Part shown: positions 20,319 through 40,400 of the stretch, in pieces
Position numbering within the stretch: position 1 is the first letter of the stretch
How the letters are laid out: each line of letters starts with the position of its first letter
Assembly: GCF_036237275.1 (NCBI RefSeq)
Contig: NZ_CP108352.1
Span: 2,170,001-2,234,000 of the forward strand
Source: Streptomyces sp. NBC_01353
GTDB lineage: Bacteria > Actinomycetota > Actinomycetes > Streptomycetales > Streptomycetaceae
Direction: 5' to 3'
DNA length: 64,000 bases
The notes under the pieces: model-generated
The model's input: only the letters and a program-made list of their open reading frames with translations
Databases searched by the model: none
What the model was told of the DNA's origin: nothing
Translations under genes and position numbers: made by a program

Positions 20319-20365
20319 GGCGCGACTTCCCCCTTCGACGTGCGGTCCCTGAGGTCTTCCAGCGG

Positions 20366-20716: not shown

Positions 20717-20739
20717 GGGGTGCCATCTCCGCTCACGTA

Positions 20740-20778
20740 CCAACGGTATGCGAACTGAACCTAGTGACATACCGTTGG
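20740..20778. promoter_or_regulatory. Perfect 11-bp inverted repeat upstream of VOC protein 1
   Basis: CCAACGGTATG (20740-20750) and CATACCGTTGG (20768-20778) are exact reverse complements separated by 17 bp. The element spans the short gap between the end of the PPTase gene and the VOC start, the region expected to hold a promoter. The inter-arm spacing is longer than in an ordinary terminator loop, so an operator bound by a dimeric regulator is more likely. The regulator is not known. Confidence 0.5.
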
Positions 20779-22144: not shown

Positions 22145-23719
22145 CTAGCCCTCCACATTGACGGCCGGAACGGCGCCGTCGGCCGAACCCTCGGAACCGT
22201 CGGCGCCATCGCCCGCTCCGGTGGCCGGAATCTTGATGACCACCGCCACCAGCACGGCGGAGGCCAGCGCGACGAACGCCCCGATGCCCCCGATGACGTT
22301 CATGCCGTCGGTGAAGGCCTCCCGGGCTGAGTCGAGCAGGACGGTCGCCACGTCCGAGGACACGCCCTGCGCCGCCTCGACCGCTCCGGCAAGCGTGTCA
22401 TCCGCGCTCGCCGCCACCCCCTCGGGGACTTCGACCCCACCGCGGTACACGGCGGCGCCGAGGCTGCCGAGCAGGGCGACGCCCAGCGCCATGCCGAGTT
22501 CGGTGCTGGTCTCCGAGAGGGCCGCGGCCGACCCGGCCTGCTCGGGCTGGGCCGATCCGACGACGATGTCCGTGCCCAGAGCGATGAGCGGGCCACCGCC
22601 GGCGTAGACGAACGCGAAGCCCGTCACCACCTGAGCGATGCCCGACGAGCTGTCGGCCAGGCTCAGCATCACATGGCCGATACCCGACACGGCAAGCCCG
22701 ACGGCGACCACGTACGCGGGACGGAACCTGCTCGCCGCCATCGGGGACACCACGGCCGTCACGATCAGCGCGAAGGCCGCCGGCAGCAGGTACAGACCGG
22801 CCTTCATCGGGGACAGTCCGCCGACGAGCTGGAGGTACTGCGTCACCGTCAGATAGGTGCCGCCGGCCACCAGCATGCTGAGCAGCAGCGTCACCAGGGC
22901 CGTACGGAAGGTGGAGTTGCCGAAGAGGCCGAGGTCGAGGAGCGGGCTCTCCAGCGTGCGCTGCCGGCGGATGAACAGCACGCCGACGACCAGGCCGACG
23001 ACGATCGCCGCGAGCGGGACCGGGCCGACCCCGTCGTTGGCGATCTCCTTCAGTCCGTAGATCACCGGAAGGATCGTGGCGAGCGACAGCGCCACGCTGG
23101 TCAGGTCGAGCCGACCGGCCTCCTCGTCGCGGTACTCCGGCAGCAGGATCGGGCCCGCCACCAGCAGCACGCCCATGATGGGCACGCCGAGCAGGAAGAC
23201 CGAACCCCACCAGAAGTACTCCAGCATGGCGCCGCCGACCACCGGGCCGAGCGCGATGCCCACGGAGAACATGGTGACCCAGACCGCGATCGCCACGCCG
23301 CGCTGGCGCGCGTCGCGGAACATGTTGATGATCAGGGCGAGGGTCGAGGGCATCAGCGTGGCGCCGGCGATGCCCATCGCGGCCCGCGCCGCTATCAGCG
23401 TGGCCGAGTCGTCGGCGAAGACGGCGGCCAGCGACGCCAGGCCGAACGCGGCGGCGCCGATCAGCAGCAGCTTCCGGCGGCCGATCCGGTCGCCCAGGGT
23501 GCCCATGGTCACCAGGAATCCGGCGATCAGGAAGCCGTAGATGTCGATGATCCACAGCATCTGGGCGGCGGAGGGGTTCAGGCCCTCACTGATGTGCGGT
23601 ACAGCCAGGTGCAGCACGCTCACATCGATGGACAGCAGCAAGGTCGGCAGCGCCAGCACGGCCAGGCCCAACCACTCACGGGGTCCGGCCTGCGAGGTGG
23701 TATCGGCGGTGGTACTCAC
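22145..23719 (-). CDS. DHA2 (EmrB/QacA) family drug exporter
   Basis: Fourteen-helix MFS transporter of 524 aa. The GTG at 23719 has AAAGGA 5-6 nt upstream. Motifs include LLLSIDVSVLHLAVPHISEGL in helix 1 and the A-motif loop GDRIGRRKLLLIG. The motif C region in helix 5 is VGIALGPVVGGAMLEYFWW. It uses the proton gradient to expel hydrophobic or cationic compounds. It follows the thioesterase gene by 43 bp and is the last gene of the long PKS operon, so it is the likely product exporter and a resistance determinant. Confidence 0.9.
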   Translation of the reverse strand: MSTTADTTSQAGPREWLGLAVLALPTLLLSIDVSVLHLAVPHISEGLNPSAAQMLWIIDIYGFLIAGFLVTMGTLGDRIGRRKLLLIGAAAFGLASLAAVFADDSATLIAARAAMGIAGATLMPSTLALIINMFRDARQRGVAIAVWVTMFSVGIALGPVVGGAMLEYFWWGSVFLLGVPIMGVLLVAGPILLPEYRDEEAGRLDLTSVALSLATILPVIYGLKEIANDGVGPVPLAAIVVGLVVGVLFIRRQRTLESPLLDLGLFGNSTFRTALVTLLLSMLVAGGTYLTVTQYLQLVGGLSPMKAGLYLLPAAFALIVTAVVSPMAASRFRPAYVVAVGLAVSGIGHVMLSLADSSSGIAQVVTGFAFVYAGGGPLIALGTDIVVGSAQPEQAGSAAALSETSTELGMALGVALLGSLGAAVYRGGVEVPEGVAASADDTLAGAVEAAQGVSSDVATVLLDSAREAFTDGMNVIGGIGAFVALASAVLVAVVIKIPATGAGDGADGSEGSADGAVPAVNVEG

Positions 23720-23762
23720 ATGTTTCCTTTCGGGGACGGTGCACATCGGTGCCCGATGACGG

Positions 23763-24572
23763 TCATCGGGCGACGGGGTGTGGGAAGGACGGCTCCGACC
23801 GGGGGTGGTCGAGGCCGGGGATCAGCCGGGCGGCGACGGCTGCCGCGTTGGTGGGTGTGTAGAGGTAGAAGTGACCGCCCGTGAACGTCTGCCGGCTGAA
23901 GCCGCCCGACGTCTCCAGCGACCACAGGTGCATCCGCTCGTCGATGACGACCGGGTCGTCCACCGCGCCGAGCGCCAGGATGGGGACGCCGGTGCCGAAC
24001 GGCGGCCGCCTGTAGGTCTCCATCGCCTCCAGATCGGCCCTGATCGCCCGGAGCGACGACCGGACCAGGTCGGCACGGTCCACAAGCCCGGGAGACATCC
24101 CGCCCATGTCCACAAGATGGTCGAGGAGTGCCGCATCGCTCCTCAGGTGGGCGAACGGCGGCTCGCTGGGGAAGCACGGCGGCTGACGCGCCGACACCGC
24201 AAGCAGCGTGGGCGGCAGACCGCCGTGCTCCATCGCCCGGGTGAGCTCGTATCCGAGCACGCTGCCGAAGCTGTGCCCGATGACCGCGTACGGCATCGGA
24301 TCCAGCTCCGCCAGACCGCGAACGAGCGCGTCGACCAGCGGCTCGACGCGGGTCACCAGAGGCTCGTTGATGCGCGCGCCCCGGCCGGGCAGCTGGGCGA
24401 CGACACACTCGACGTCCTCGGGCAGCACCTGCCACCAGGAGCGGAACGCGGACGGCCACCCACCGGCGTGCGGCAGTGCCACGACCCGGAACCGGGGACG
24501 AGGCCGGGTCCCCGGCCCGGCGCCCGTCGTCCGACGCGCGCCGCTGCCCACCGTCATCCACCAGCCGCTCAT
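23763..24572 (-). CDS. Type II thioesterase
   Basis: Alpha/beta-hydrolase of 269 aa. The nucleophile elbow is GHSFGS, with LPHAGGWPSAFRSWW as the oxyanion/entry segment, the catalytic Asp region in ALGAVDDPVV and the final His in TGGHFYLYT. This set is typical of editing thioesterases that clear misprimed or stalled acyl chains from carrier proteins. The ATG overlaps the HDAC-family stop (ATGA). No type I TE domain exists in the PKS, because release is by the AOS domain, so this enzyme is likely for proofreading. Confidence 0.9.
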   Translation of the reverse strand: MSGWWMTVGSGARRTTGAGPGTRPRPRFRVVALPHAGGWPSAFRSWWQVLPEDVECVVAQLPGRGARINEPLVTRVEPLVDALVRGLAELDPMPYAVIGHSFGSVLGYELTRAMEHGGLPPTLLAVSARQPPCFPSEPPFAHLRSDAALLDHLVDMGGMSPGLVDRADLVRSSLRAIRADLEAMETYRRPPFGTGVPILALGAVDDPVVIDERMHLWSLETSGGFSRQTFTGGHFYLYTPTNAAAVAARLIPGLDHPRSEPSFPHPVAR

Positions 24573-25741
24573 CTCGGCCCCACGTCCTCGGGCGCGGGAC
24601 TCCCGGCCACCGCGGACCGACCGGCCGTGGGTGCCGCGCCCGCCAGCAGCGGGTGATGCGCTTCCAGGTGCGCGATCACCCGCTCCTGGTGACGTTGGAG
24701 ACGCTGACCCGGAAGGTGCTCGAGCGAGTGCAGGAACGGGTCCTGAGGGGCCGGCAGACCGGCGATCGCACTCGCCGTTCCCAGCACCAGCATCGGCTGG
24801 TACCACGCCGAGTAGCCACCCTCGTGGGCGAAGACGATCCTGCCCCCGGTCAGTTCGTCCGCGAGCCGGCACATCGTCGACGTCATCGTGTGGAAGGTGC
24901 GGCTGGTGCAGAGCATCCGGCCCATCGGATCGTGGCCGCTCGCGTCGACGCCCGCCGCCACCAGGATCAGATCGGGGTCGAAGGCACGGGCCGCCGGCTC
25001 CACGATCCGGTCCATCACCGCCAGATACGCGCCGTGTCCCGAGCCTGCGGGCAGCGGCACGTTGAGAGTGCTGCCCGCCCCCGCGCCCTCGCCGGTCTCC
25101 AGAACGAGACCGGACGCAGCCGGGAACAGCCCTTCCTGGTGCACCGAGATGTACAGCACGTCGGGGTCCTCGTAGAAGGTCCGCTGGATGCCGTTGCCGT
25201 GGTGCACGTCCCAGTCCAGGATCAGCACGCGGCGCGCGCCCTGGCGCTGCGCCGCACGGGCGGCCACCGCCAGGTTGTTGTAGAGGCACAGCGCCATCGC
25301 CCGGTCCGGCTCCGCATGATGGCCGGGCGGCCTCACCAGGCAGTACGCCCGGTCGAAGCGGCCGTCCAGGACGCCCGTGGCGGCCTGCACACAGGCCCCG
25401 ACGGCCAGCCTCGCGGCCTGTGCGCTGTGGTAGTTGACGTACGCGTACACACCGGCGTCGCCCGCGCCCGCCGCCGAGGCCGCCTCGACCCGCTCGATGT
25501 GATCGGGGACGTGCACGAGGAGCAACTCCTCGTCGGAGGCCGGCGTCGGGGTGAGAGGGGTGAACCGGTCCATCACACCGAGCGCCTTGACCAGCCCCTC
25601 GGCACGCCGGAGGTCCGGGTCGACCGCGAACTGGCGCAACGGCTCGACGCCAGGCCCGACCGGCACGTACCCCGATCCGGGACCGGGGTCGTGCCAGAAA
25701 CAGATCTCGTGGCTGAACCACGCGAGACGGGAGGTGCTCAC
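24569..25741 (-). CDS. Class II histone-deacetylase-family amidohydrolase
   Basis: Zinc amidohydrolase of 390 aa. It shows RPPGHHA (charge-relay histidines), DWDVHHGNG (zinc ligands Asp and His), AGVDASGHDP (third zinc Asp) and AHEGGYS (substrate loop). It matches the class II HDAC/acetylpolyamine aminohydrolase family, which cleaves N-acyl amides. Start and stop overlap both neighbours by 4 bp, tying it to the PKS operon. Since the assembly line begins with an N-formylated amino acid, removal of an N-acyl or N-formyl group from the product is a reasonable but unproved role. Confidence 0.88.
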   Translation of the reverse strand: MSTSRLAWFSHEICFWHDPGPGSGYVPVGPGVEPLRQFAVDPDLRRAEGLVKALGVMDRFTPLTPTPASDEELLLVHVPDHIERVEAASAAGAGDAGVYAYVNYHSAQAARLAVGACVQAATGVLDGRFDRAYCLVRPPGHHAEPDRAMALCLYNNLAVAARAAQRQGARRVLILDWDVHHGNGIQRTFYEDPDVLYISVHQEGLFPAASGLVLETGEGAGAGSTLNVPLPAGSGHGAYLAVMDRIVEPAARAFDPDLILVAAGVDASGHDPMGRMLCTSRTFHTMTSTMCRLADELTGGRIVFAHEGGYSAWYQPMLVLGTASAIAGLPAPQDPFLHSLEHLPGQRLQRHQERVIAHLEAHHPLLAGAAPTAGRSAVAGSPAPEDVGPR

Positions 25742-26046
25742 CAGCCGGACACACCCAGCGAGGCCCGGCTGATCCCCGCGACCTTCTCGATGTACTGGAG
25801 GTAGTACTCGCGCTCCTCGTCCGGTGTGCGCTTGGTGCGCAGCGTCGTCCCCAGGAGACCGAGCACCTCCTCGGCCTCGGTCGGCGTCAGTCGCCGGTCA
25901 CCGACCTCCTTCTCGACCGCGCGGATCCGCGCGGTCGGCTCCAGCACGCCGGACGCGTACGCGTCCTGGTCGGTGCCATGGTTACGGGTCGAGGCGATGG
26001 TCTTCAGGATCGCTCCGAAGAACGCCGTGGTGTCGATGTCGGTCAT
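25738..26046 (-). CDS. Small unknown protein of the PKS operon
   Basis: A charged protein of 102 aa that I do not recognise. It looks all-helical: residues ~5-30 (AFFGAILKTIASTRN), ~37-47, ~52-70 (TPTEAEEVLGLLGTTL) and ~75-95 (DEEREYYLQYIEKVAGI). There is no signal peptide, metal motif or carrier-protein serine motif. It overlaps the HDAC-family gene (ATGA) and lies 81 bp after the last PKS gene, so it is co-expressed with them. A docking, chaperone or small-subunit role is possible; nothing in the sequence decides it. Confidence 0.6.
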   Translation of the reverse strand: MTDIDTTAFFGAILKTIASTRNHGTDQDAYASGVLEPTARIRAVEKEVGDRRLTPTEAEEVLGLLGTTLRTKRTPDEEREYYLQYIEKVAGISRASLGVSGW

Positions 26047-26127: not shown

Positions 26128-29100
26128 TCAGCGGATCAGGCCGCAGACGCGGCCGGCTTTCTCCAGCGTCACGACGGCCGCGTCCAGATCGGCGTCGGAG
26201 TGGCTGAGGTTGACGATGGTCCGCAGCCGGGGCAGCGTCCGCGGCACGGCCGGGTAGACGATCGGCTGGACGAAGAGCCCGTCCTGCTGGCACAGCCGGG
26301 CCATCGTTCCCGCCTGCTCGGCGCCGGCGCAGATGATGGGCACCACCGGTGTCTCACTGGCCAGCGTGTCGAAGCCCAGGGCACGCAGCTGCTCGCGGTA
26401 CCGGGTCGTCTTCGTCCGCAGGTCCCGGGTGAGGGACGGGGCGGCCTCCATCACCTCGACCGCGGCCTTGGCCGCCGCGACCTGGGCGGGAGTCGCGGCC
26501 GCGGAGAACATCCAGCCCCGCGCGTTGTTCTTCAGGGCGAAGATCAGGTCGCTGGACCCGGCGACGTACCCACCCGCGCTCGGCACCGTCTTGGAGAGCG
26601 TGCCCATCTTGACGTCGACCCGTGCCGGATCGATGCCGAAGTGCTCGGTGATACCACGACCGGTGGCGCCGAGCACGCCCAGGCTGTGCGCCTCGTCGAC
26701 CATCAACGGGGCGTCGTACCGCTCGCACAGCTCCACGATGCCGGGCAGATCGGCCACGTCGCCGTCCATGCTGAACACGGCGTCGGTGACCACAAGGCGG
26801 CCCGCCTCACCCACCTTGCGCAGGGCGCGTTCCAGGTCGGCGAGGTCGTTGTGGGCGTAGGTGATGACCGACGCACCGGAGAGCCGGTACCCGTCCAGGA
26901 TGCTGGCGTGGTTGTAGACGTCGCCGATGACGACGTCGCCGGGGCCGACGAGAGCGCCGACCGTCGCCACGTTCGCCATGTAGCCGCTGGAGAAGACGAT
27001 GGCGTCCTCGGTGCCCAGGAAGCGGGCGAGCGCCAACTCCAGCTCCCGGTGCAGATGCAGAGTGCCCGCGAGGAGACGTACGCCGTGCGCGCCGGTCCCG
27101 TGCTTCTCCACGGCGCGCAGGACCTGGTCGTCGATGTAGTCGTGCCCGATGAGCCCGAGGTAGCTGTACGAAGCGAAGTTGAGGAACCAGCGGCCGTCGA
27201 ACTTGATCCGGGGGCCCGTGGCCTCCTCGATGACGGGTTCGTAGAAGTACTCGTCCTTGGCGACGATCAGGCGGTCCTCCGTCGACAGGGCGTCGATGCG
27301 CCGGTCGAGGAAGGTGCCGTGAGGGGCGTCGGCCAGCCGGCCCGGCAGGGTACGCCGCGGTACGCGCTCGGGTCCCGGGGTGGGACCAGGGGACGGCGAC
27401 GGGCTCGGGAACGGGGTACGGGTCGCGGTGGGGGCGGTGGTGGCCCGGGCGGGGGTACGGGGCGGCGACACCGGCAGGGTCGCAGCGGCGGGCGCCACGT
27501 CCCTGAAGCGGTCCCAGTCGGGGACGAAGGAGTCGGCGGTGGCCGGGGCCATGGAGGCCGACGGCCGTTCCACGACCGCGGCCGGTCGCTGCTGCGGCAC
27601 CGAACTGTGCGACGCCGGAGACGGAGGCGCCGCGGGCGTCTGCGGAGCCGGGGCTGGGGCGGGGGCCGGCGCCGGGGCTGGGGCGGGGGCCGGCGCCGGG
27701 GCCGGGGCTGGGGCGGCGGCCGAAGTGCCGCGCGGCAGTGATTCGAGGTGGGCGAGCAGGGCGCCGACGTTGGTGCGCTCGAAGAACACCATGGGGTCGA
27801 TGTCGAGCCCGTCGGCGGCCAGCGACGCCGCCAGCTCGACCGCCATCATCGAGTCGAGGCCCAGCTCCAGCAGATCGTCCTCGGCGGACACGCCATCCAG
27901 GTGCAGGACCTTCGTGAGCGCGTGGGTGAGCGACGGCCACAGCCCGGATTCCGGTGTGACAGCAGTCATGGGTGCATCCTTCGCTTTCGCGGCGGCGGAC
28001 AGGACGTAGTGCGCGGGGGGTCGGCCCAGGGCCGTACGGAGCAGGTCGATGCCGTCGTCCGCGGTGAGGGCCGGGATGCCGTGCGCGGCGGCCTTCGGGG
28101 CGATGGACTCGCCCATCCCGACGGTCCACAGACCCCAGCCGAGGCTGTACCAGGGGCGGCCTTCGGCGCGTTGGCGGGCGGCGTAGCCCTCCAAGTAGGC
28201 GTTGGCCGTGGCGTAGGCGCTCTGGCCGAGGTTCGCCCGTACGGCCGCGACGGAGGAGAACAGGGCCACGAAGCCAGGCTGTTCGTGCCCGGACACCAGG
28301 TCGGTCAGCGCGTGTGCGCCGCCGATCTTGGGCCCGAAGACGGTGTCCACCTGCTCCGGGGTCAGGCTGCGCGCCAGTCCGTCGCGCAGCACTCCGGCGG
28401 CGTGGAACACCCCGTCGTAGCGTGCGGCGCCGGCCAGGACGTCGCGAAGCGAGCGGACGTCCGCCGCCACGACCGCCAGATCGCAGCGGGCTTCGAGTCG
28501 GTCGAGGCGTTCCCGGGCCTCTCCCTGTTCCGGCACGGTCCGCCCGACCAGAGTCAGATGGGCGCAGCCCGCGTCCGCGAGGAACTCCGCGGCGCGCAGG
28601 CCGATGCCGCCCATGCCGCCGGTGATCAGGAAACGGCCGCCGTGGTATCGCACCGAGTCGGAGATGCTTGTGGGCTGCGGCAGCAGGGAGGGCTCGTACC
28701 AGGCGCCGTCGCGCCGGGCGAGTTCCGGCCGGTCCTGACCGAGCGCCTCCCACAGGACAGCGGCTTCGCCGGCTTCCGCGCCGATCGTGTGCTCGGGGCC
28801 GAGATCGACCAGCCGGACCCTGGTACGGGGATGCTCGACGCGCAGCGTGCGGCCGAGGCCCCACAGGGCGGTCATGAACGGGTCGACGACATCCCCCGCC
28901 GCCACCTCGTGTGCAACGGAGGTGACGATCAGCAGGTCGGACATCGGCGGGCGTGCCGCGAGCCGGCGCACCAGTGCGAAGACCCCCTGAAGGGCTTCCG
29001 TCACCTGCGCCTCGCCGCTCAGCCCGCGCGGTGCCACGTACACGACGTCCCGGAAGGGAGCGTCGGCCGGCAGCGTGTCGAGGCCGCTGTCGGAGAGCTG

Positions 29101-30108
29101 CGCCGGCGTCAGGTGCACACCCTGCCGGCCTGCCGGTGGACGGAGGTCGTGCGTGGACACGATCAGCACGGGCCCTGCGGCCACGGCCGGTGATCCGGGA
29201 GCGGCCTCGACCTCCCGCCAGACGACGGTCTCGATCAACGGAACCGCCGGCAGCCCCTGTTCCGGATCGGCGAGCGTCGAAGCGACCGTGGTGGCGGTCG
29301 GCGCGGCGGGCACTGGAGATGCCGCGGGCCTGGCGGCCTTGAGCGTGATGCGGTCCAGTTCCAGCAGGACCTCCCCCTGCTGATTGCAGACCGTGGCCCG
29401 TCCCCGTACCGCACCGCCCGTGCCCCCGGCCTCGCCCGGCTCGTCCCGCTCGACCAGGGCGATCACCGTGCCCGAGATCCTGCGGCGGGCCACCAGCCGA
29501 CCGACGTACCAGGGCAGACACGCCCCGGTGGCACCCCCGTCGAGCATCCCGAGCGCCTGGAAGACGCTGTCGAGCAGTGCCGGCGGTACGAAGGGAGGTG
29601 CCGACGCCGCGTCCGCATCGTCCCCGGCCCGGAGCATCAGCAGCATCCGGCCCGATCCCCGGTGCGCCGACCGGATCACCTGGTACGCCGGCCCGTACGC
29701 GATCCCGCTCGCCTCGCGCCACGCGGCCACGTCCGACAGCGGCACGTGCTCCGTGCAGCCGGTCCGCAGCGCGGCCACATCGACGTAGCGGGGCGGCGGC
29801 AACGGGCTGCCGGACACCCGGGCGGTGCTGTGCACGACCGGTTCGCCGTCTCCCGGCCGTACGCAACGGACCGCGCACCCGCCGTCCTCGGTCGTGTCGA
29901 TCTCGAGCTCCGCCTCGGGCCCCGCCACCAGCAGGGGCACCCGGAAGGCGACCTGCTCCAGGGTCCACCGGCAGTCGGGGCGCCGAACGTCGCAGGCGGA
30001 CAGCATGGCGTCGATCTGCGCGGCCGCGGGGAGGACCGGGATGCCTCCGATCCGATGGTGCGAGACCAGCGGATCGGTAGCGCTGAGGACCGTCCTGGCG
30101 CCACTCAT
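26128..30108 (-). CDS. PKS protein D: DH-KR-ACP with C-terminal alpha-oxoamine synthase
   Basis: Protein of 1326 aa that completes module 6, whose KS-AT part is on the previous PKS protein. Residues ~1-258 are a dehydratase (HHRIGGIPVLP with His18; Asp180 in ALLDSVFQ). Residues ~288-705 are a ketoreductase (TGGMGGIG, Ser619, Tyr632, VLRDG). Residues ~722-790 are an ACP (GLDSMM, Ser753). A run of alternating Ala-Pro at ~799-822 opens a disordered Pro/Thr linker. Residues ~935-1326 are a PLP-dependent alpha-oxoamine synthase (GTGAHGVRLLAGT, VDEAHSLG, GTLSKTVPSAGGY with Lys1173). This family condenses an acyl thioester with an amino acid with loss of CO2, so it probably releases the chain as an alpha-aminoketone. 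The ATG overlaps the AlkC-family stop (ATGA). Confidence 0.92.
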   Translation of the reverse strand: MSGARTVLSATDPLVSHHRIGGIPVLPAAAQIDAMLSACDVRRPDCRWTLEQVAFRVPLLVAGPEAELEIDTTEDGGCAVRCVRPGDGEPVVHSTARVSGSPLPPPRYVDVAALRTGCTEHVPLSDVAAWREASGIAYGPAYQVIRSAHRGSGRMLLMLRAGDDADAASAPPFVPPALLDSVFQALGMLDGGATGACLPWYVGRLVARRRISGTVIALVERDEPGEAGGTGGAVRGRATVCNQQGEVLLELDRITLKAARPAASPVPAAPTATTVASTLADPEQGLPAVPLIETVVWREVEAAPGSPAVAAGPVLIVSTHDLRPPAGRQGVHLTPAQLSDSGLDTLPADAPFRDVVYVAPRGLSGEAQVTEALQGVFALVRRLAARPPMSDLLIVTSVAHEVAAGDVVDPFMTALWGLGRTLRVEHPRTRVRLVDLGPEHTIGAEAGEAAVLWEALGQDRPELARRDGAWYEPSLLPQPTSISDSVRYHGGRFLITGGMGGIGLRAAEFLADAGCAHLTLVGRTVPEQGEARERLDRLEARCDLAVVAADVRSLRDVLAGAARYDGVFHAAGVLRDGLARSLTPEQVDTVFGPKIGGAHALTDLVSGHEQPGFVALFSSVAAVRANLGQSAYATANAYLEGYAARQRAEGRPWYSLGWGLWTVGMGESIAPKAAAHGIPALTADDGIDLLRTALGRPPAHYVLSAAAKAKDAPMTAVTPESGLWPSLTHALTKVLHLDGVSAEDDLLELGLDSMMAVELAASLAADGLDIDPMVFFERTNVGALLAHLESLPRGTSAAAPAPAPAPAPAPAPAPAPAPAPAPQTPAAPPSPASHSSVPQQRPAAVVERPSASMAPATADSFVPDWDRFRDVAPAAATLPVSPPRTPARATTAPTATRTPFPSPSPSPGPTPGPERVPRRTLPGRLADAPHGTFLDRRIDALSTEDRLIVAKDEYFYEPVIEEATGPRIKFDGRWFLNFASYSYLGLIGHDYIDDQVLRAVEKHGTGAHGVRLLAGTLHLHRELELALARFLGTEDAIVFSSGYMANVATVGALVGPGDVVIGDVYNHASILDGYRLSGASVITYAHNDLADLERALRKVGEAGRLVVTDAVFSMDGDVADLPGIVELCERYDAPLMVDEAHSLGVLGATGRGITEHFGIDPARVDVKMGTLSKTVPSAGGYVAGSSDLIFALKNNARGWMFSAAATPAQVAAAKAAVEVMEAAPSLTRDLRTKTTRYREQLRALGFDTLASETPVVPIICAGAEQAGTMARLCQQDGLFVQPIVYPAVPRTLPRLRTIVNLSHSDADLDAAVVTLEKAGRVCGLIR
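27648..27720. repeat. 24-bp tandem repeat encoding the Ala-Pro linker
   Basis: Two exact copies of a 24-bp G/C unit (begins GGGGCTGGGGCGGGGGCC) plus partial copies flank each other inside PKS protein D. On the coding strand they give the alternating Ala-Pro run between ACP and AOS. Such repeats expand and contract by slippage and make stiff interdomain tethers. Confidence 0.7.
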
Positions 30109-31226
30109 GTGTGCAGGTCGAATCGCTCGGTGGCCTGGACGAGCCCGTTCACCTGGATGTCGACGGTGTGCTCACCCGCGTAGTACTTGCGGGTCTGCAC
30201 CTCCTTGATCGCGTGGGTCTTCTCCAGCGACCGCCGCTCCCCGGGGCCGAGTTCGAGGGTGGTCAGCTTGAAGACCTTCGGGATGCTGCGCCCGTTCTTG
30301 CGCACGTGGTGCACCACGTAGTCGACCGCGATGCTGTGCGCCCGGGCGTCGGTGTTCTCGATGTCGAAGCTGATGACGAGGGTGTCCCCGATGGTCACCG
30401 ACCGGGGGGTGATGCTGAGCCGGGGTACGCGGACATGCTCGCCGCCCGTGGCCCCGAGGATGGCCAGGGCCTGCTGATCACCCTTCTTCACCAGGGTGCG
30501 CAGTCCGTGCTTGACGATCCAGTTGGTCTCAGGGGTGGGGCTCTCCTCCAGCCACCGCAGCGCGGTCGCGAGCGCGAGATCGGGGGCGTCCTTGGAGATG
30601 TCGTTGAGGTTGTTGGCGACGGACTTGCGCACATACTCCGAGGAGTCGCTGCGCAGTGGTTCGAGGATCTCCAGGACAGGCCGGGGGTCCTTGACGAACA
30701 TCGTCAGAGTCCGGGCCCAGGGCAGGCGGGAGCGGATTCCCTCGCTCGCCAGGCGCCGCACGTTGTGGCTCGGGCTCTGTGCCCACCGGGCGACGCGCTC
30801 CATCGTCGGCGCGTAGTGCTGTTCGAGGTAGGGCCGGATCGCGTACTCGCCCGTGTGCCGCCTGGTGATCTCCTCGATGGCGTCCAGCGACAGGTCGGGG
30901 TGGTCGAGCCCGTACTCCTCGACGAATCGCGCTACGGGCATGAGGAACCAGCTGGAGTTGAACATGCCCTCCCCCTCGGCGAGTTCGTCGCCGAGGATGG
31001 TGAGCAGGATCGGTACGGCGTCGGCGTAGTCGGCGGGCAGGCGGGTCCGCAGGCCCTCGGCCAGGACGAGGACGCGGTCCTTCAGCTCTTTGCCGGGAAT
31101 GCGCGACTCGGTCTCGGTCGCGTAGCTCTCCACGTCGAACTCGGGGTGGACGGCTCGGATCCTGTCGCCGATCAGGCGGGCCGCATCACCGTTGAAGTGT
31201 CGCTTGAGTCCGTATTCGCTAGCCAT
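30105..31226 (-). CDS. AlkC-family DNA alkylation-repair glycosylase with Ig-like domain
   Basis: Protein of 373 aa. Residues ~1-265 are alpha-helical HEAT-like repeats with AlkC-family wording: GLKRHFN at the start, FDVESY, ELKDRVLVLAEGL, DSSEYVRKSVANNLND and NWIVKHGLRTLVKKGD. Residues ~275-373 are beta-rich (LSITPRSVTIGDTLVISFDI ... RFDLHT), matching the C-terminal Ig-like domain of the AlkC subgroup that grips DNA. AlkC enzymes excise cationic alkylated bases without base flipping. The ATG overlaps the end of PKS protein C by 8 bp and its stop overlaps PKS protein D by 4 bp. AlkD homologues serve as self-resistance in yatakemycin-type clusters, so this is probably a resistance gene to a DNA-alkylating product. 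Confidence 0.85.
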   Translation of the reverse strand: MASEYGLKRHFNGDAARLIGDRIRAVHPEFDVESYATETESRIPGKELKDRVLVLAEGLRTRLPADYADAVPILLTILGDELAEGEGMFNSSWFLMPVARFVEEYGLDHPDLSLDAIEEITRRHTGEYAIRPYLEQHYAPTMERVARWAQSPSHNVRRLASEGIRSRLPWARTLTMFVKDPRPVLEILEPLRSDSSEYVRKSVANNLNDISKDAPDLALATALRWLEESPTPETNWIVKHGLRTLVKKGDQQALAILGATGGEHVRVPRLSITPRSVTIGDTLVISFDIENTDARAHSIAVDYVVHHVRKNGRSIPKVFKLTTLELGPGERRSLEKTHAIKEVQTRKYYAGEHTVDIQVNGLVQATERFDLHT

Positions 31227-34200
31227 GGTTCTGGTGCCTCTTCGTCTCGGTCTTCTGGTTCGACGTGGTGTCGTGCGGGCTGGAGGAGATCCAGAACCGC
31301 TGTCGGTGGAAGGGGTAGGTGGGGATGGTGGTGGTGCGCCGGCCCTTGCCCTGATGCAGACCGGCCCAGTCCAGATCGGCAGGGGTCTGGTTGACATACG
31401 CGGTCACCGCCGCGTGCAACTCGACCTGATCGGTCCGATCTCGCCGCAGGGTGCTGAGCCATGCCGGCTGTGTCTCGCCCCACGACGCCTTGGCGAGCGA
31501 GGTCAGCTGGGGGTGCGAGCCGATCTCCCACACCGATCCCGCACCGATCTCTCCGAGCACGGCCACGGCCTGGGTGAAGCGCACGGGCTCACGGATCGCT
31601 CGACCCCAGTAGCCCGGGTCGGCAGCCGTCTGGGCGGAATGCCAGTCGCCGGTCACGGTCGACGCGAACGGAATCACCGGAGCCGACAGTGCCGTACCGG
31701 CCACCGCCTCGACGAAGGGCGCGACCGCACCCTGCATCGCCGCCGAATGGAAGGCATGACTGACCGTCAGCGGCTGCGACCGAAGTCCGGAGTCCCGACA
31801 GAACCGGGTGACGGCATCGGCCGGACCGGTAATCGTCACGACACGGGGCGCGTTGAACGCGGCGATCTCCACCCCCGGATGGGCCGTGATCGCAGCAAGG
31901 ACTGCCTCGGCATCCGCATGAACCACCGCCATCGCACCCTGACCGGGCTGCGACTCCATCAACCGGCCACGAATCGCCGTCAGACGCAGCAGATCCGCCA
32001 GCCCCAGCACACCGGCCGCCCAAGCGGCCGACAGCTCACCCAGACTGTGACCCACCACAGCATCCGGGCGAACGCCCACCGACTCCAGCCAGCGCACCAG
32101 GCCCACCTGGACACTCACGATGGCCGGCTGCGCATACCCCGTCCGATCCAGCCGACCCGGCACATCACCGAACAGCAGATCCAGCAACGGCACATCCACA
32201 TGCCCCGCCAACAGCTCGGCACACTCGTCCAACGCAGCCCGGAACACCGGCTCCACCGCATACAAACCACGGCCCATACCCAGATACTGCGAACCCTGCC
32301 CCGTGAACATGAAGGCGGTCGGCGCGGGGGTACCACCCCGCCGGGACACAGAGCCCTGACCTGCGGCAACATCCCTCAAACCAGTAGCCAGTTCACGAGC
32401 GTCGCTGCCATGCACGACGGCACGCAGGCGGTGGGCGGCTCGGCCGGTGTTCGCCGTGAAGGCGAAGTCGCCCAACTCTTGGTCGGATGTGTCGGCCAGG
32501 GCTTCGGAGTAGGCGTCGGCGAGGGCTCGCAGTGCCGTCTCGTCCGCCGCACTCACCCGCACGACATACGAGTCCTGCGCCGGCGTCCCCCGCTCCGGCA
32601 GTACGGGCGGTTCCTCCACGATCACATGAGCATTCACCCCACCCATGCCGAACGCACTCACCGCAGCACGCCGAGGCTCCACACCCCGAGGCCACACCTG
32701 CGCACGATCCGCCAGATAGAACGGCGTCTCCTCAAACCGAATGTGATCATTCGGCCGCACCACATGCAACGACGGCGGAACCACCCCATGCTCCAACGCC
32801 AACAGGACCTTCACCAGCCCCGCCAACCCCGCCGCCGGCTCCAAATGACCGACATTCCCCTTCAACGAACCAATCGCACAAAACTGCGACCTGCCGGTGA
32901 GCCCACGCCACGCCCGCGTCAGACCCTCAACCTCAATCGGATCACCCAAAGACGTCCCCGTCCCATGAGCCTCCACCAACCCAATCGACTCAACCGACAC
33001 CCCCGCATCACCCAACGCCGCCGTGATGACAGCCGCTTGGGCGCGCGGGCTGGGTGCGGAGTAGCGGGTGGTGCGTCCGCCGTGGTTGACGGCGGCTCCC
33101 TTGATCACACCCCGGATCCGATCACCGTCCCGCCGGGCGTCGTCGTACCGCCGCAACACCACGGCCACGGCTCCCTCTCCCGGGACGAAGCCGTCGGCGG
33201 TGCTGTCGAAGGCCCGGCTGCGGTGCCGGGGCGACAGGGCCATCAGGTCCCCCATCGACCGGAAGTACTCCGGGCTGATGCCGGCGTGCACGGCCCCGAT
33301 GACCGCCGTGTCGATGTCACCGGTGCGCAGGTGCTGCAGCGCCGAGTGGATGGCGACCAGGGACGACGAGCAGAGGGTGTTGACCAGGCCGCTGGGGCCG
33401 TGCCAGTCCATCAGGTACGACAGCCGGTTCGCGATCATCGCCTCGAGACCGAGGCCACGCCCTTCGGGTACGCCGTAGCGCACCCGCTCCTCGTGGTAGT
33501 GGTCGTGGCTGTACGCGATCCACAGACCGGTGTTGCCGCCGTCGGCCCGCCTGCCGATCCGGCCGCCGTCCTCCAGGGCCTCCCAGATCGTCTCGTACAC
33601 GATCCGCGCCTGCGGATCGATCAGGGGAGCTTCGCGGGCCGAGATCCGGAAGGGGGCCGGGTCGAACTCGTCCACGCGGTCGAGGAACGAAGCGTACGGA
33701 ACCGGCCCGGCCACCTTGTCCCAACGGCCCTCGGGCAACGGGCGGACCGTGTCCCGTCCTTCGGCGAGCAGCTCGGCGAAGGCGGTCAGATTCTTCGCGG
33801 TGGGCAACCTGACCGCCGCACCCACGACGGCGATGTCACGCGGTCGTGATGCCGGGGCGGCTGAAGCCTCCTGGGGTTCGGTCTCGGGCCTTCGTGACGT
33901 GACGGTTGTCCGCGCCACGGGTGCGGGTTCCTCCGCCACAGCCGGGGCGACCTCCAAGGCCTGTTCGGCCGGGGCCGCCAGCGTGTCGACGAGCTCCGGT
34001 GCCTCGTCCACCAGGAAGTCGGCGAACTGCCGAGGGGTCGGGTACTCGAAGAACACCGTCGGGTAGAGGGACAGTCCGTACTCCTGAGAGATGCGCTCGC
34101 TCAGCGTCACCAGACCCACCGAGTCGAACCCGGCGGACAGGAACTCCGTATCGGTGTGCTCCTCGGAGGTGCCCGTCAACGCAAGGAACCAGGTGAGCGC

Positions 34201-37200
34201 CCGTGCCGACCGTGAGGCGGGGGCCGTCGGGGCCGCGGGACGAGGTGGTGTCGGTGCGGGCGAAGTCGGCTCCTGCGGCAGCGCGGCGACGGCCTCGGAC
34301 GGCGCTACAGGCACGACCGGCGCGGGCGTCACTACCGGCGCAACCGCCGCAACAGGCACCACTGCCGGCGTCTCCCCCGCCCGGAACGCCTGGACGGGAA
34401 CCCGCTTCGACGCCATGTCGCCGAAGACCAGCAGCGGCGTCCCCGCCTCATCGGTCACGGTCTGGGTCACCCGGCAGGCTTCGTCGTTCCAGAACGCGAT
34501 CTCCGTCCGCACGTAGGCGGCGGCGTCCAGCGGCCCGAGGACGTCCAGCCGGCCCACCGAGAGCGGGATGAAGGCGGACGCGTCCGCCGCGCCGAACACC
34601 GGGTTGGCCGGGTCGATCGCCGCGACGGTCACGCTGTCCAGGAGCCCGGGGAACAGCTGCACGCCGGGCGGGTTCATCTCCCGCTGCCGGGCGCCTTCGA
34701 TACGGGCGAGGGTGCCGCCGTCCGGCAGGCTCGCGACCCAGGAGATGTTCCGGTAGTAGCGGCCGTGGTGGTAGCCGATCCGCCGCAGCCACCGGTAGAG
34801 GCCCGAACCCGCATGCACGGCGGAGCCGGCGCAGTCGGCCAGCAGTGCGGTCAGAGGTACGCGAAGCGGCGGCTCGTGCGAGGGCCCGCCGGCGAGTCGG
34901 CCGGTGACGAAGAGTTCCCCGCTCTCGGGGTCCTCCACCCTGAACCGGTTCTCCGCGTCGACCCGGCCGACGACCCGGTGGGCGCCGGACGGGATGAGCG
35001 GGCGGTGGAAGAGGATGTCCCGCGCCCCGTGGAAGGGTTCGCCGCGCAGTGCGGCACCTTCGCGCAGGAAGTCGAACCACGCCACGCCCGGGAGCATGAG
35101 CGTGCGGTACACCGCGTGCTGGGCGATGGGTGCCTCGGCAGGACCGAACACACGGGAGAACGTGTATCCGGCCGTCCCCTCGTCCGACACCAGCTCCGCG
35201 GGCGCCCCGGGCTCGGCCGAACGCAGGGGCTCGGCCAGGTTGAGGGCGCGGCCGCGCGGTTGGGCGGCGGGCAGCAGGCGCTTGCTCCACGAGGTGCCCG
35301 TGGCCTGCTGGAACGCCGCCCAGTCGATGTCCTGCCCCGCTTGGAAGAGCTCGGCGGCGATCGCGGCGAGCACCACGGCGACCTCCCGCTCGTCGCGGGC
35401 TTCGGCCAGCCGTGCGCCGACGTCGTGACCGTCGGCACCGCCGTGGTCCCGCACGTCCTGCGCGGGCTCGCTGTCGCTCCGCAGGACGTCGGCCAGCGCC
35501 TGCTCCAGCGGGACGCGTCCTCGTACGAAGTCCCCGACCGCCCCCCAACCCGGAGGCAGGACCACCGCGCCTTCGGGCAGCCCCAGGTCGCGCAGCGCGA
35601 TCGCGAGGGCGACGCCGGACGAGATCCGCAGCAACTCGCCCGAGAACGTGGCCAGTTGGGTGCCGGTGGCCGTTTCGAACAGGCCGACGACCTCGTGAAC
35701 GGCCGGCGTGGAGCGGTCGAGGGCCGTCAGCCACGCGGGCGGGGCCGCAGCCGCCTCGGGACGTACGGACACGGCGGTACGGGCGCTGCCGACGCTGCCG
35801 GTCTCCGGTGCGCCGGCCCGCAGGAGCCATGTGCGCAGGGCGGTGGCCAGTTGATCCGCGTTCGCCCCGACGACGGCCAGCCGCTCGGTACGGTGCGGCC
35901 GGGCCAGGCGGGCCGTGGCGCACACGTCGCCGAGCTCGCCGTGCCCGTCCGCCAGGGTCGGCAGGAACTCCAGCCACTGGGCGACCAGTTCCCTCAGCGC
36001 GTACGGGCTGTCGGCGGACAGCGGCAGCACATGGACCGGCCACGGCTGCCCGCCGGCCCCCGTCGGCCCGGCAAGGGCGCCGTCCGTGCGGGGAGCGGCC
36101 TCGGCCACCACATGGGCGTTGGTGCCACCGAAGCCGAATCCGCTCACGGCGGCCCGGCGCACCGGAGCGTCCGGCCAGGGGAGGCGGGTGTCGGGCAGGT
36201 GGAAGGGGCTGTCGGCGAGGTTGAGCCGCGGGTTGGGCGACTCCACCGCCACGGCCGGGACGACGCCCTCGCGCATCGCCACGATGATCTTCGCGAGCCC
36301 GGCAAGACCCGACGCCGAGTGCAGATGGCCGATCCGGCGCTTGATCGAGCCGAGGGCGACGGAGTTCGGGGGCACACCGTGCCGGGCGAACACCTCGGTG
36401 AGCGCCCGCACTTCGATCGGGTCGCCGATGGCGGTGCCGGTGCCATGTGCCTCGACGTACTGGACGGTCGCCGGGTCGATGGTCTTGTACGCCCTGCCCA
36501 GCAGGTCGATCTGGGCTTCCAGGTTCGGTGTGGTGACACCCATGGTGCGGCCGTCGTTGTTGACCGCGACCCCGCTGATGGCTCCGAGTATCAGGTCGCC
36601 GTCGGCCAGCGCCGCCGGCATCGGCTTCAGCACCAGGGCGGCGGCTCCCTCCCCGGGCACATAGCCGTTGGCCCTGCTGTCGAAGGTGTGGCACAGCCCG
36701 TCCGGGGAGAGCGCCCCGGTGCGGGAGAGGAGTACGAACGTCAGCGGGTCGATCAGCAGGTCGACCCCGCCGACCAGGGCGAGCTCACAGGTCCCGGCCG
36801 CGAGGCTCTGGCAGGCGAGCCAGACCGCCGACAGCGAGGACGAGCAGGCGGTGTCGACCACCAGGCTCGGGCCCGCCAGGTCGAAGCGGTCGGAGAGCCA
36901 GGCCGCCATGAAGTTCTGCGACCGCCCCCACAGGGCGGCCGGCCCGGGGATTCCGACAGGGCCCTCCGAGCCGGGCGTAACCGTGCCTCGGCCCTGGTCG
37001 AATCCGTACGCGTTCATGCGCGCGGCGATGAACACGCCGGCGTCGAGCCGGCGGCGCACCCCCAGGTACCCGGAGTCCTCCAGGGCCCGTGCGCCGACCT
37101 CCAGCATCACTCGCTGCTGGGGGTCGAGGAGCACGGCGTCCTCGGCGGTCATGCCGAACGCCTCGTGGTCGAAGGAGAACGGGTCCACCAGGAAGCCGCC

Positions 37201-37416
37201 GCGGTGGTGCGTGCCCTGGTGGGGCCCCTCGCCCCGGTACAGCTCGCGGGCCCACCGGCTCGGCGGGACCTCGCCGACCTCGACCCCGTCGCGGCCCAGC
37301 AGGGCGGTCAGATCGACGAGGTCCTCGGCGCCCGGGACCCGTACCGCAAGGCCGATCACGGCGATGCGGGTGTCGAGCTCGCTCACAGCAGTCCTTTCGT
37401 TCGACTCTCCGGTCAT
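31219..37416 (-). CDS. PKS protein C: KS-DH-ACP-KS-AT
   Basis: Protein of 2065 aa. KS5 at ~15-440 (DTACSSS Cys191, HGTGT His324, IGHLHSASG His364, a deviant form of the NIGH motif). DH-like region at ~745-1010, where His767 (QHAVYRTLMLP) lacks the usual Gly and Asp927 is kept. ACP at ~1070-1137 (AGFDSV, Ser1099). KS6 at ~1192-1605 (NTLCSSS Cys1349, His1484, His1524). AT at ~1698-1985 (GHSLGE Ser1791, HAFH at 1887-1890, the malonyl-type motif). The first module has no AT and no KR. The second stops after AT and continues with DH-KR-ACP on protein D. The ATG overlaps the stop of protein B (ATGA). Confidence 0.93.
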   Translation of the reverse strand: MTGESNERTAVSELDTRIAVIGLAVRVPGAEDLVDLTALLGRDGVEVGEVPPSRWARELYRGEGPHQGTHHRGGFLVDPFSFDHEAFGMTAEDAVLLDPQQRVMLEVGARALEDSGYLGVRRRLDAGVFIAARMNAYGFDQGRGTVTPGSEGPVGIPGPAALWGRSQNFMAAWLSDRFDLAGPSLVVDTACSSSLSAVWLACQSLAAGTCELALVGGVDLLIDPLTFVLLSRTGALSPDGLCHTFDSRANGYVPGEGAAALVLKPMPAALADGDLILGAISGVAVNNDGRTMGVTTPNLEAQIDLLGRAYKTIDPATVQYVEAHGTGTAIGDPIEVRALTEVFARHGVPPNSVALGSIKRRIGHLHSASGLAGLAKIIVAMREGVVPAVAVESPNPRLNLADSPFHLPDTRLPWPDAPVRRAAVSGFGFGGTNAHVVAEAAPRTDGALAGPTGAGGQPWPVHVLPLSADSPYALRELVAQWLEFLPTLADGHGELGDVCATARLARPHRTERLAVVGANADQLATALRTWLLRAGAPETGSVGSARTAVSVRPEAAAAPPAWLTALDRSTPAVHEVVGLFETATGTQLATFSGELLRISSGVALAIALRDLGLPEGAVVLPPGWGAVGDFVRGRVPLEQALADVLRSDSEPAQDVRDHGGADGHDVGARLAEARDEREVAVVLAAIAAELFQAGQDIDWAAFQQATGTSWSKRLLPAAQPRGRALNLAEPLRSAEPGAPAELVSDEGTAGYTFSRVFGPAEAPIAQHAVYRTLMLPGVAWFDFLREGAALRGEPFHGARDILFHRPLIPSGAHRVVGRVDAENRFRVEDPESGELFVTGRLAGGPSHEPPLRVPLTALLADCAGSAVHAGSGLYRWLRRIGYHHGRYYRNISWVASLPDGGTLARIEGARQREMNPPGVQLFPGLLDSVTVAAIDPANPVFGAADASAFIPLSVGRLDVLGPLDAAAYVRTEIAFWNDEACRVTQTVTDEAGTPLLVFGDMASKRVPVQAFRAGETPAVVPVAAVAPVVTPAPVVPVAPSEAVAALPQEPTSPAPTPPRPAAPTAPASRSARALTWFLALTGTSEEHTDTEFLSAGFDSVGLVTLSERISQEYGLSLYPTVFFEYPTPRQFADFLVDEAPELVDTLAAPAEQALEVAPAVAEEPAPVARTTVTSRRPETEPQEASAAPASRPRDIAVVGAAVRLPTAKNLTAFAELLAEGRDTVRPLPEGRWDKVAGPVPYASFLDRVDEFDPAPFRISAREAPLIDPQARIVYETIWEALEDGGRIGRRADGGNTGLWIAYSHDHYHEERVRYGVPEGRGLGLEAMIANRLSYLMDWHGPSGLVNTLCSSSLVAIHSALQHLRTGDIDTAVIGAVHAGISPEYFRSMGDLMALSPRHRSRAFDSTADGFVPGEGAVAVVLRRYDDARRDGDRIRGVIKGAAVNHGGRTTRYSAPSPRAQAAVITAALGDAGVSVESIGLVEAHGTGTSLGDPIEVEGLTRAWRGLTGRSQFCAIGSLKGNVGHLEPAAGLAGLVKVLLALEHGVVPPSLHVVRPNDHIRFEETPFYLADRAQVWPRGVEPRRAAVSAFGMGGVNAHVIVEEPPVLPERGTPAQDSYVVRVSAADETALRALADAYSEALADTSDQELGDFAFTANTGRAAHRLRAVVHGSDARELATGLRDVAAGQGSVSRRGGTPAPTAFMFTGQGSQYLGMGRGLYAVEPVFRAALDECAELLAGHVDVPLLDLLFGDVPGRLDRTGYAQPAIVSVQVGLVRWLESVGVRPDAVVGHSLGELSAAWAAGVLGLADLLRLTAIRGRLMESQPGQGAMAVVHADAEAVLAAITAHPGVEIAAFNAPRVVTITGPADAVTRFCRDSGLRSQPLTVSHAFHSAAMQGAVAPFVEAVAGTALSAPVIPFASTVTGDWHSAQTAADPGYWGRAIREPVRFTQAVAVLGEIGAGSVWEIGSHPQLTSLAKASWGETQPAWLSTLRRDRTDQVELHAAVTAYVNQTPADLDWAGLHQGKGRRTTTIPTYPFHRQRFWISSSPHDTTSNQKTETKRHQNHG
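31641..32316. repeat. AT-domain block nearly identical to 46987-47662
   Basis: The AT-coding segment of protein C matches that of protein A with only scattered differences at a constant offset of 15,346 bp. The identity stops sharply at ~32316, resumes at ~32450 and continues to ~33022 in the KS. This is a sign of recent duplication or gene conversion. Confidence 0.85.
32450..33022. repeat. KS C-terminal block, copy in protein C
   Basis: Nearly identical to 47796-48368 (protein A) and, for most of its length, to 39547-40057 (protein B). Coding-strand codons here are T/G-ending (ATT, TTG, GGT, CAT, GTT), unlike the C-ending codons of the surrounding genes. Confidence 0.85.
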
Positions 37417-40400
37417 GCCTGCTCCCGTCCCCGCTGTCCGTCGTGGCCGAGCAGCGGACGCAGCAAGGCGCTCAGAGCGGAGGTGGGCACGTCCTCGTGG
37501 TCGGGGGTGGGCGGACGGTGGGCGGCGGGTGCCTCATGGGCGGCGAGGTCCGCCGCGATCTCGTCGGCCGTGCGTGCCCGCATCAGCAGCGACGGATCGA
37601 CGGTCAGGCCGCTGCGCTGCTCAAGGGCCGTGGTCAGCTCGGCGATCACCAGGGAGTCCAGCCCCAGCCTCTGGAGCGGACGGTCTCCCGGGTCCTCCCC
37701 GAGCACCTGAACGAAGGCGTCCCGGACGCGTTCGCGCATCCCGGCGACGTCCTGCGCGCCGCGCGCCGGTGCGGGGGGTGCGGAGGTCTCGGCCCGCACC
37801 ACCGTCGGCATGGACTCGACGGACTCGGTGGCGTCCGCCGTGGTGGCGGGGGCGCTTCCCGGGAAGATCACGGCGCCACCCGACCGCAGGTGGTCGAAGA
37901 AGGCGTCCAGTGCCTGTTCGGCGCTGATCGAGTGCGCGGCGGAGAAGGACGCGTCCGCCTTCATGCCGATGCCCGTCCAGTTGGGCCAGGCGTGCGCGGT
38001 GACCGTGGTGACGGAGTCGTTCTCCCGCTCGGCGAGGGCCAGTTGGTAGGCGTTGGCGAGGCTGTAGTCGACCAGGCCCCGGCCGGCCGGGGCCTGTGTG
38101 CCGGCGATCGAGGACACCAGGACGGCGAAGTCGGCGCCCTGTTCCTTGGCCAGCCGTACGACGTGCAGCGAGCCGGGGACCTTGGGGGCCACCACCTTGT
38201 CGGCGTCGCTCCACGTCCGGCGGTGCATCGCCCCGAACGGGTTGACCCCGCCGGAGGAGTGCACGACGCCGACCAGCCGGCCCCAGCGCCGGCCGAACTG
38301 CCCGGCCATGGCGGCGAGCGCGGCCGGGTCGGAGACGTCGCAGGGCAGGTACTCGACCTCGGCACGCCGCGCCAGCTCCCGCAGGGGCGGGGAGTGCTCG
38401 GCATCGACGACCGACCGGCCGATGATGCCGATGCGCTTGGCTCCCCGGTCGATGAGCCGCTCGGTCAGACGCAGTCCTACGGCGCCCAGTCCTCCGGTGA
38501 CCAGGTAGTACCCGGAGGTCGGCAGGGCATAGGGCGGGCCGGCCGGCGCGGGCACCGGTTCCGGGGTGTACCTGACGCCTTGCCGGTAGGCCGCGACCAC
38601 CGTGCCGGCGTCTGCCCCGGCCTCCGGACCGGTGCTGAGGGCGGCGTACTCGGCCGCCAGGCGGACGGCCTGCACCTCGGCCGGGTCGGCCGGGTCCAGA
38701 TGGACGACGGCGGTGGGCTTGCGGTTCTCGGCCCCGGCGGCCCGCACGGCCATGGCCATGGCGGCCCGCTCGGGGGACAGGCCGCCGCGCTCGTCGGGGT
38801 GCACGGCCACGCCGTGGAACCCGGCCCAGAGCAGCTTCCCGTGCGCGGGCAGCGTCTTCATCAGGTTGCCCAACTCGGCCCAGAAACCGCTCAGGTCGAG
38901 GGGCCCGCTGCCGCCCTGGTTCTGCTGACCGCTCAAGGTGTCGATCACGATGGTCGTGTCCGCCTGCCGGCCGGGCTCGACGACGGTCACGCTCCGGTCC
39001 CGGAGGGCCGTCGTCAGCGCACGCCCGATCTCGGGGTCGGCGACGACCAGGCGTACCGTGGCCGAGCCCGTCGCCGAGCCCGTCGCCGGCGCGGGCGCCA
39101 GTTCCCGGGCGCGCCACTCGGTGCGTACCGCCTCACCGCCCGCCGGTGCCGGGGCCGGCACGGCCGCGGTGTCGGTGGTGTGCCAGTACGACCCTCGCGC
39201 GAACGGATAGGTGGGGAGGTCCGTGACGCGGGCGCCCTTGGCCGAGAGCGAGGCCCAGTCCGTGTGCGCGTACCCCGCCCTGACCAGCTTGACGACATCG
39301 TCGGGCCGGGGCGCTGCCGCGATCGCCCCGGTTCGGCTCGCCGCCTCTTCGGCGGTCAGGTCGATGTCGACGCGAGCCACCGGAACGCTGCCGGCGGCGA
39401 CGGAGCGGAGCTCGGCGGCGAGGTCGGCGGCTGTGCGTCCGTACACCGCGGTCTGGAACTCCAGTGGGGAGCGGCCGGTGTTGGCGGTGTGGCAGAGGTC
39501 GGCGGTCTCCCAGTCGTCGCGTGCTGCCTCGAACCGCTCGGCGTAAGCGTCGGCGAGGGATCGCAGTGCGGTCTCGTCCGCCGCACTCACCCGCACCATG
39601 TGCGAGTCCTGCGCCGGCGTCCCCCGCTCCGGCAGTACGGGCGGTTCCTCCACGATCACATGAGCATTCACCCCACCCATGCCGAACGCACTCACCGCAG
39701 CACGCCGAGGCTCCACACCCCTCGCCCACACCTGCGCACGATCCGCCAGATAGAACGGCGTCTCCTCAAACCGAATGTGATCATTCGGCCGCACCACATG
39801 CAACGACGGCGGAACCACCCCATGCTCCAACGCCAACAGGACCTTCACCAGCCCCGCCAACCCCGCCGCCGGCTCCAAATGACCGACATTCCCCTTCAAC
39901 GAACCAATCGCACAAAACTGCGACCTGCCGGTGAGCCCACGCCACGCCCGCGTCAGACCCTCAACCTCAATCGGATCACCCAAAGACGTCCCCGTCCCAT
40001 GAGCCTCCACCAACCCAATCGACTCAACCGACACCCCCGCATCACCCAACGCCGCAGCAATCACCCCCTGCTGCGCCGCACTACTCGGCACCGTCAACCC
40101 ACTCGTACGACCACCATGGTTGACCGCACTCCCCCTGATCACACCCCGAACCCGGTCACCATCACGCAAAGCAGCACCCAACGGCTTCACCACCACCGTC
40201 ACCACACCCTCCCCCGGCACAAACCCATCCGCACCCGCATCAAACGGCCGGGATGCGCCCGAGGGTGACAGGGCACGCAGGTTCTTCATCGCGACGTAGT
40301 GCAGCGGGGACAGCGCGACCCGGACGCCGGCGACGATGGCCTGTTCGCACTCGCCCTCGCGGATGCTGCGCACCGCCGTGTGCAGGGCGACCAGAGACGA

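Follow-up and report, generated by a model that had tools for sequence, protein, structure and literature searches.

A DNA glycosylase gene inside a polyketide synthase operon

The window, meaning the whole 64,000-nucleotide stretch of Streptomyces sp. NBC_01353 analyzed here, holds a polyketide synthase (PKS) cluster in which the gene for an AlkC-type DNA glycosylase sits between two PKS genes (Table 1). The overlaps of this gene with both neighbors, to which an earlier note on this DNA had drawn attention, are borne out at 8 bp with PKS3 and 4 bp with PKS4. From the Rieske oxygenase gene through the MFS exporter gene, all genes lie on one strand and either overlap slightly or are no more than 81 bp apart, and on this basis we infer that AlkC is co-transcribed with the PKS genes.

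Table 1. Genes and features of the AlkC-containing cluster (window positions)
Feature	Position	Strand	Remark
FAD oxidoreductase, monooxygenase/halogenase fold, without W-x-W-x-I-P motif	57544..58800	-	
Rieske non-haem iron oxygenase	55900..57168	-	upstream of PKS1 in clusters with upstream DNA examined
PKS1: formyltransferase-adenylation(Gly code DILQLGLIW)-PCP-KS-DH-ACP-KS-AT	46544..55897	-	start set by homologues
PKS2: DH-KR-ACP, KS-DH-ACP, KS-KR-ACP; no AT domain found	37413..46547	-	domain counts; order from motif positions
PKS3: KS-DH-ACP-KS-AT	31219..37416	-	8-bp overlap with AlkC
AlkC-type DNA glycosylase, 373 aa	30105..31226	-	ATG start; full-length AlkC match and fold
Span with residues aligned to P. 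fluorescens AlkC active site: E127, E162, W170, D209	30600..30848	-	
C-terminal Ig-like domain of AlkC, residues 265-372	30111..30434	-	model beta strands and beta-sandwich matches
PKS4: DH-KR-ACP-alpha-oxoamine synthase (BioF/serine palmitoyltransferase-like)	26128..30108	-	4-bp overlap with AlkC
Conserved 102-aa protein of unknown function	25738..26046	-	no Pfam match
Histone-deacetylase-like amidohydrolase	24569..25741	-	
Type II thioesterase	23763..24572	-	Pfam Thioesterase in frame
MFS exporter	22145..23746	-	
4'-phosphopantetheinyl transferase	20783..21538	-	in some related clusters
VOC-family (glyoxalase/bleomycin-resistance superfamily) protein	20366..20770	-	kept beside AlkC in S. termitum relic
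Cysteine-rich repeat protein	about 19734-20330	-	no Pfam match

Across PKS1 to PKS4 (26128-55897) there are six KS domains, four of them in PKS2 and PKS3, versus only two AT domains, both of which fall in split modules of the form KS-AT // DH-KR-ACP. PKS1 carries a loading unit (Formyl_trans_N, AMP-binding, and PP-binding domains) whose adenylation code, read by eye from motif positions with the tenth position unread, we take to be a glycine code. The same code occurs in all four other clusters with an orthologous adenylation domain in hand; a fifth match, 30% identical, is a different domain, and three further loci have no such domain. The flavin enzyme was rejected as a halogenase, since the halogenase motif W-x-W-x-I-P is absent, yet the solved proteins that match it best carry the name halogenase. 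We identified no enzyme in the cluster that would obviously form a warhead. Many relatives likewise carry the VOC and cysteine-rich repeat genes at the end of the cluster, and the products of these genes are possible further resistance proteins; the query "orf19734" combines a shadow frame of the VOC gene and the cysteine-rich protein and is credible only in its C-terminal part. A thioesterase frame at 23716-24573 likewise proved to be a shadow and was replaced by the true frame in Table 1.

The earlier note had recognized HEAT repeats and a C-terminal Ig-like domain of AlkC in the window protein, and this identity now rests on Pfam, on the strands of the model, and on a full-length fold match. 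The structure prediction that the note had proposed returned an AlkC fold over the entire length, with beta strands in the Ig-like domain. The protein is therefore of the long AlkC type, a HEAT-like repeat body followed by an Ig-like domain; its closest match was not an AlkD/YtkR2-type fold lacking the latter, and Pfam (E 0.001) found no HTH_42 domain, only DNA_alkylation and sub-threshold HEAT. Residues E127, E162, W170, and D209 show no variation across the alignment of AlkCs (91 of 91) and correspond to positions E121, E156, W164, and D203 of P. fluorescens AlkC (offset to PDB numbering set by alignment with that protein), reported as active-site residues by Shi et al. 2018. The P. fluorescens enzyme (PDB 5VHV, 5VI0) is 34% identical to the window protein and resembles it over the whole length, in HEAT body, Ig-like domain, and active-site residues, but only the window protein is placed in a PKS operon. 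An insertion near residues 82-87 is common to the window protein's own clade and absent from most of the 60 other AlkCs. Thirty-seven residues, including the start methionine, are fixed in cluster copies and rare among those 60, and many of them are already present in stand-alone relatives. No second AlkC was found in the window's genome, which holds two further DNA_alkylation-family genes encoding 252 and 272 aa (L036/L037, at G000:C1:7309534 and 8163470).

AlkC is a constant component of the cluster across genomes

Mapping AlkC in the genus, we found matches in 41 of 295 genomes, 11 of which (own included) show at least 80% identity and the others at most 46%. The cluster deacetylase is found at 82% or more in the same 11 of the 295 genomes, with the next best match at 41%. 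In all 10 other cluster-type genomes, AlkC is followed by PKS4, and the end of the gene before it is closer in bit score to the PKS3 end than to the PKS1 end (10/10, with only a few dozen residues before the contig end available in G076). One locus of genome G266 (L042, 1-10948) has before AlkC a gene that is PKS1-like in its body and PKS3-like at its end and that lacks PKS2 and the front part of PKS3 in between. Here the draft assembly may have collapsed, or the assembly line may truly have been rearranged and shortened.

Beyond the genus, 44 of 293 genomes drawn from the order match AlkC (three genomes are shared with the genus draw), and all eight cluster-type genomes besides the window have AlkC inside PKS genes. 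Among 394 genomes drawn from the class, 30 match. One genus of another family includes a genome with the cluster (AlkC 67% identical) and three genomes (55-60%) without it within the 15-20 kb viewed. A scan of named genomes listed at least 19 loci, comprising 16 in the cluster, one relic, one broken stand-alone copy, and one copy from a MAG (38%). By record title, the cluster is found, among the matches listed, in S. niveus, S. chryseus, S. albidochromogenes, S. rimosus, S. albidoflavus, and S. neyagawaensis and, outside Streptomyces, in Micromonospora haikouensis, M. wenchangensis, and Nonomuraea pusilla. The record titled Microtetraspora glauca (L112) was taken to be G076, a genome of the window's genus, and does not count as a further genus. 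In Streptomyces sp. NBC_00158, the cluster is carried on a linear plasmid.

Counting duplicate loci (e.g., G114 and L110) as one genome, AlkC is conserved inside the cluster across producers in 26 copies, placed in PKS genes as far as the contigs allow. All 25 cluster or relic junctions measured (own included) keep the 4-bp overlap with the gene downstream. The 8-bp overlap with the gene upstream is kept in 19 of them, and two of the remaining six lie at contig ends. The cluster AlkC of WAC08241 has its frame broken at several points, perhaps through sequencing errors. At 17 loci with other kinds of AlkC (11 and 6 viewed), the cluster was not found, the weak matches there being one to an adenylation domain (25%) and three to MFS proteins (31, 32, and 53%). 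The last of these belongs to a locus of G703 (L165, 9149-13022), where the gene for another kind of AlkC (40%) is found near that for an MFS protein 53% identical to the window exporter, without PKS genes.

Cluster-linked AlkCs form one clade and co-diverge with the cluster

In a midpoint-rooted tree of 91 AlkC sequences, a single clade with support of 96/97 unites the 26 copies from clusters with a relic copy from S. termitum; the long row of G716 is weakly placed within it (86/47). The tree omits the frame-broken L099/L124 (one genome), L126, the fragments L148-L152, rows without loci, and duplicates. Because the relic is nested inside the clade, a label test restricted to the 26 cluster copies requires two changes. 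The sister of the cluster clade is a stand-alone copy of G317, followed by three stand-alone copies of the other genus, and these 31 AlkCs are separated from the 60 others by a long branch. The earlier note had taken grouping with housekeeping AlkCs as the pattern that would speak against its reading; in the tree, the nearest stand-alone AlkCs are sister lineages and are not interleaved with cluster copies, the S. termitum relic being the sole exception.

Amino acid distances among AlkCs track those of the alpha-oxoamine synthase domain, the deacetylase-like protein, and the MFS exporter (r of 0.949, 0.919, and 0.952; n=22), correlations reached by 0 of 2,000 permutations. Since genes traveling together are expected to co-diverge, this alone is no proof of function. 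The dN/dS of the window's AlkC versus 21 others is about 0.2-0.4. Chance or housekeeping placement of AlkC was rejected on the co-occurrence in the same 11 genomes, the PKS neighbors, the kept overlaps, the single clade, and the co-divergence.

The closest relative outside the cluster clade, 69% identical to the window protein, is encoded in G317 between GNAT and beta-lactamase-family genes (L096, 10325-11437), and G317 also holds a full cluster with its own AlkC. Together with the copies in three genomes of one genus, this second copy suggests that the protein is useful without the cluster. It could then be argued that AlkC performs general repair of ordinary methylation and is merely carried along in a mobile cluster, unlinked to its product. 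Such a role would fit the stand-alone members of the wider clade, one of which (L160) lies beside the housekeeping genes for PEP carboxylase and carboxyltransferase, as well as the occurrence of the cluster in records of several families and on a plasmid. However, AlkC is found in every cluster viewed, with overlaps largely kept and sequences co-diverging, and three cluster genomes already have an AlkC elsewhere, namely the stand-alone gene of G317 and an additional long AlkC of another kind in G266 and G416, so that the cluster copy there does not merely fill a repair gap. We therefore regard general repair as improbable.

AlkC outlasts the cluster in S. termitum

In S. termitum JCM 4518 (L114, 9733-13095), a decayed copy of the cluster retains PKS scars, an intact AlkC of 373 aa (82% identical to the window protein), and the VOC and cysteine-rich genes. 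AlkC is flanked by a KS-AT scrap with the last part of PKS3 and by a PKS4 scrap of about 130 bp, beyond which follow the genes for the VOC and cysteine-rich proteins and then more of the cluster end. The genome has neither the cluster deacetylase (best match 35%) nor the cluster oxoamine synthase (best match 41%). The dN/dS of this AlkC is 0.29-0.36 versus its nearest cluster relatives, compared to 0.14-0.20 for three pairs of intact-cluster copies among those relatives, so constraint is weaker yet visible, and part of it predates the loss of the cluster. Here, resistance seems to have outlived production under natural conditions.

This retention bears on the proposal that AlkC acts within the PKS, as a structural or tailoring component, and not on DNA, being positioned between the KS-AT and DH-KR-ACP halves of a split module. 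AlkC does lie exactly at such a split, and its overlaps are conserved. However, the PKS1/PKS2 junction is equally split with no AlkC between, every active-site residue is kept, the nearest relatives are stand-alone genes, and an intact AlkC after cluster loss favors protection over a PKS role. A part in the assembly line is thus quite unlikely.

Retention without the cluster is not universal, as S. verrucosisporus CPB1-1 (L099/L124) has a stand-alone cluster-type AlkC (about 73%) with its frame broken near residue 232, in a genome without the cluster deacetylase or oxoamine synthase (best matches 32% and 40%). On plasmid pTHAF33_a of Ruegeria sp. THAF33 (L169, 1-1738), TetR, VOC, and short AlkC genes adjoin one another and may form an alkylation-response group. 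This AlkC is without the Ig-like domain and 49% identical to the window protein, and the VOC protein is 30% identical to that of the window cluster (E 5e-19). No VOC gene like that of the window was found in 23 AlkC loci outside the cluster (E 1e-3).

A predicted self-resistance gene and its product

The recurrence of the AlkC-in-cluster arrangement in many related species suggests a DNA-damaging product against which the enzyme protects the maker. We consider it likely, judging from comparative sequence evidence, that AlkC is the cluster's self-resistance gene against its own, putatively DNA-alkylating product. This reading, first put forward in the earlier note, is favored by the standing of AlkC as a fixed cluster member in its own clade, by co-divergence, by the kept catalytic residues, and by the intact gene in one genome without the PKS.

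In the pathway that we propose, the assembly line would build a polyketide from N-formylglycine, and the terminal alpha-oxoamine synthase would free the chain as an alpha-amino ketone, which the Rieske and flavin enzymes would then oxidize. The finished or activated compound would alkylate DNA bases and be exported by the MFS protein. AlkC, probably translated from the PKS transcript, would find the cationic alkyl-base in the producer's DNA and cut its glycosidic bond, leaving ordinary base-excision repair to finish. In B. cereus, AlkC and AlkD act specifically on alkylpurines that carry a positive charge (PMC4433238), so a lesion excised here would be a cationic base adduct. B. cereus AlkC was one of the enzymes that gave no detected excision product with trioxacarcin (PMC8934636); the adduct here would therefore be small, or the cluster enzyme adapted. 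Alternatively, AlkC might remove damage that arises within the pathway, from a reactive intermediate, from a shunt product, or from a by-product of oxidation such as an aldehyde or epoxide, with the final product hitting another target. The two oxygenase-type enzymes and the amino ketone chain end would suit this alternative and nothing specific speaks against it, and sequence alone cannot separate it from self-resistance to the final product; we nevertheless judge it very unlikely.

Comparison with known self-resistance glycosylases and assembly lines

Self-resistance by glycosylases of the AlkD and AlkZ types is already established. YtkR2 and C10R5, AlkD-type enzymes that confer self-resistance in the yatakemycin and CC-1065 clusters (PMC8626424), are HEAT-repeat alkylbase glycosylases encoded within a gene cluster, as is the window AlkC. 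AlkZ, HedH4, TxnU2/U4, and LldU1/U5, of the HTH_42 (AlkZ/YcaQ) type, belong to the azinomycin, hedamycin, trioxacarcin, and LL-D49194 clusters (PMC9040887 and PMC8934636) and share with the present proposal glycosylase self-resistance by cluster linkage, but their protein family is unrelated to the window AlkC, which has no HTH_42 match. The earlier note knew of no biosynthetic cluster using an AlkC-type enzyme in this way, and our search, which covered open-access literature, agrees in finding no description of one, so that novelty is provisional. In the available portions of PMC9040887, PMC8626424, and PMC8934636, AlkC appears only as a comparison enzyme or cited reference.

AlkD and AlkZ self-resistance glycosylases mark clusters of known genotoxins. 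With somewhat less confidence than in self-resistance itself, we favor the view that AlkC is a third glycosylase type, recruited once for this purpose, and that it marks widespread, uncharacterized DNA-alkylating polyketides that are formylglycine primed and alpha-oxoamine synthase terminated, a new chemotype that probably forms small or minor-groove cationic adducts. If this is true, the AlkC-linked cluster family would provide a new enzyme family for resistance-guided mining and an orphan polyketide class predicted to damage DNA. The loading unit of PKS1, with its formylation and glycine selection (code read by eye), is like those of oxazolomycin and conglobatin, in which a glycine-specific unit with formylation precedes PKS modules (PMC4504003). 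Unlike those assembly lines, that of the window ends in an alpha-oxoamine synthase and is accompanied by AlkC, a histone-deacetylase-like amidohydrolase, and a Rieske oxygenase.
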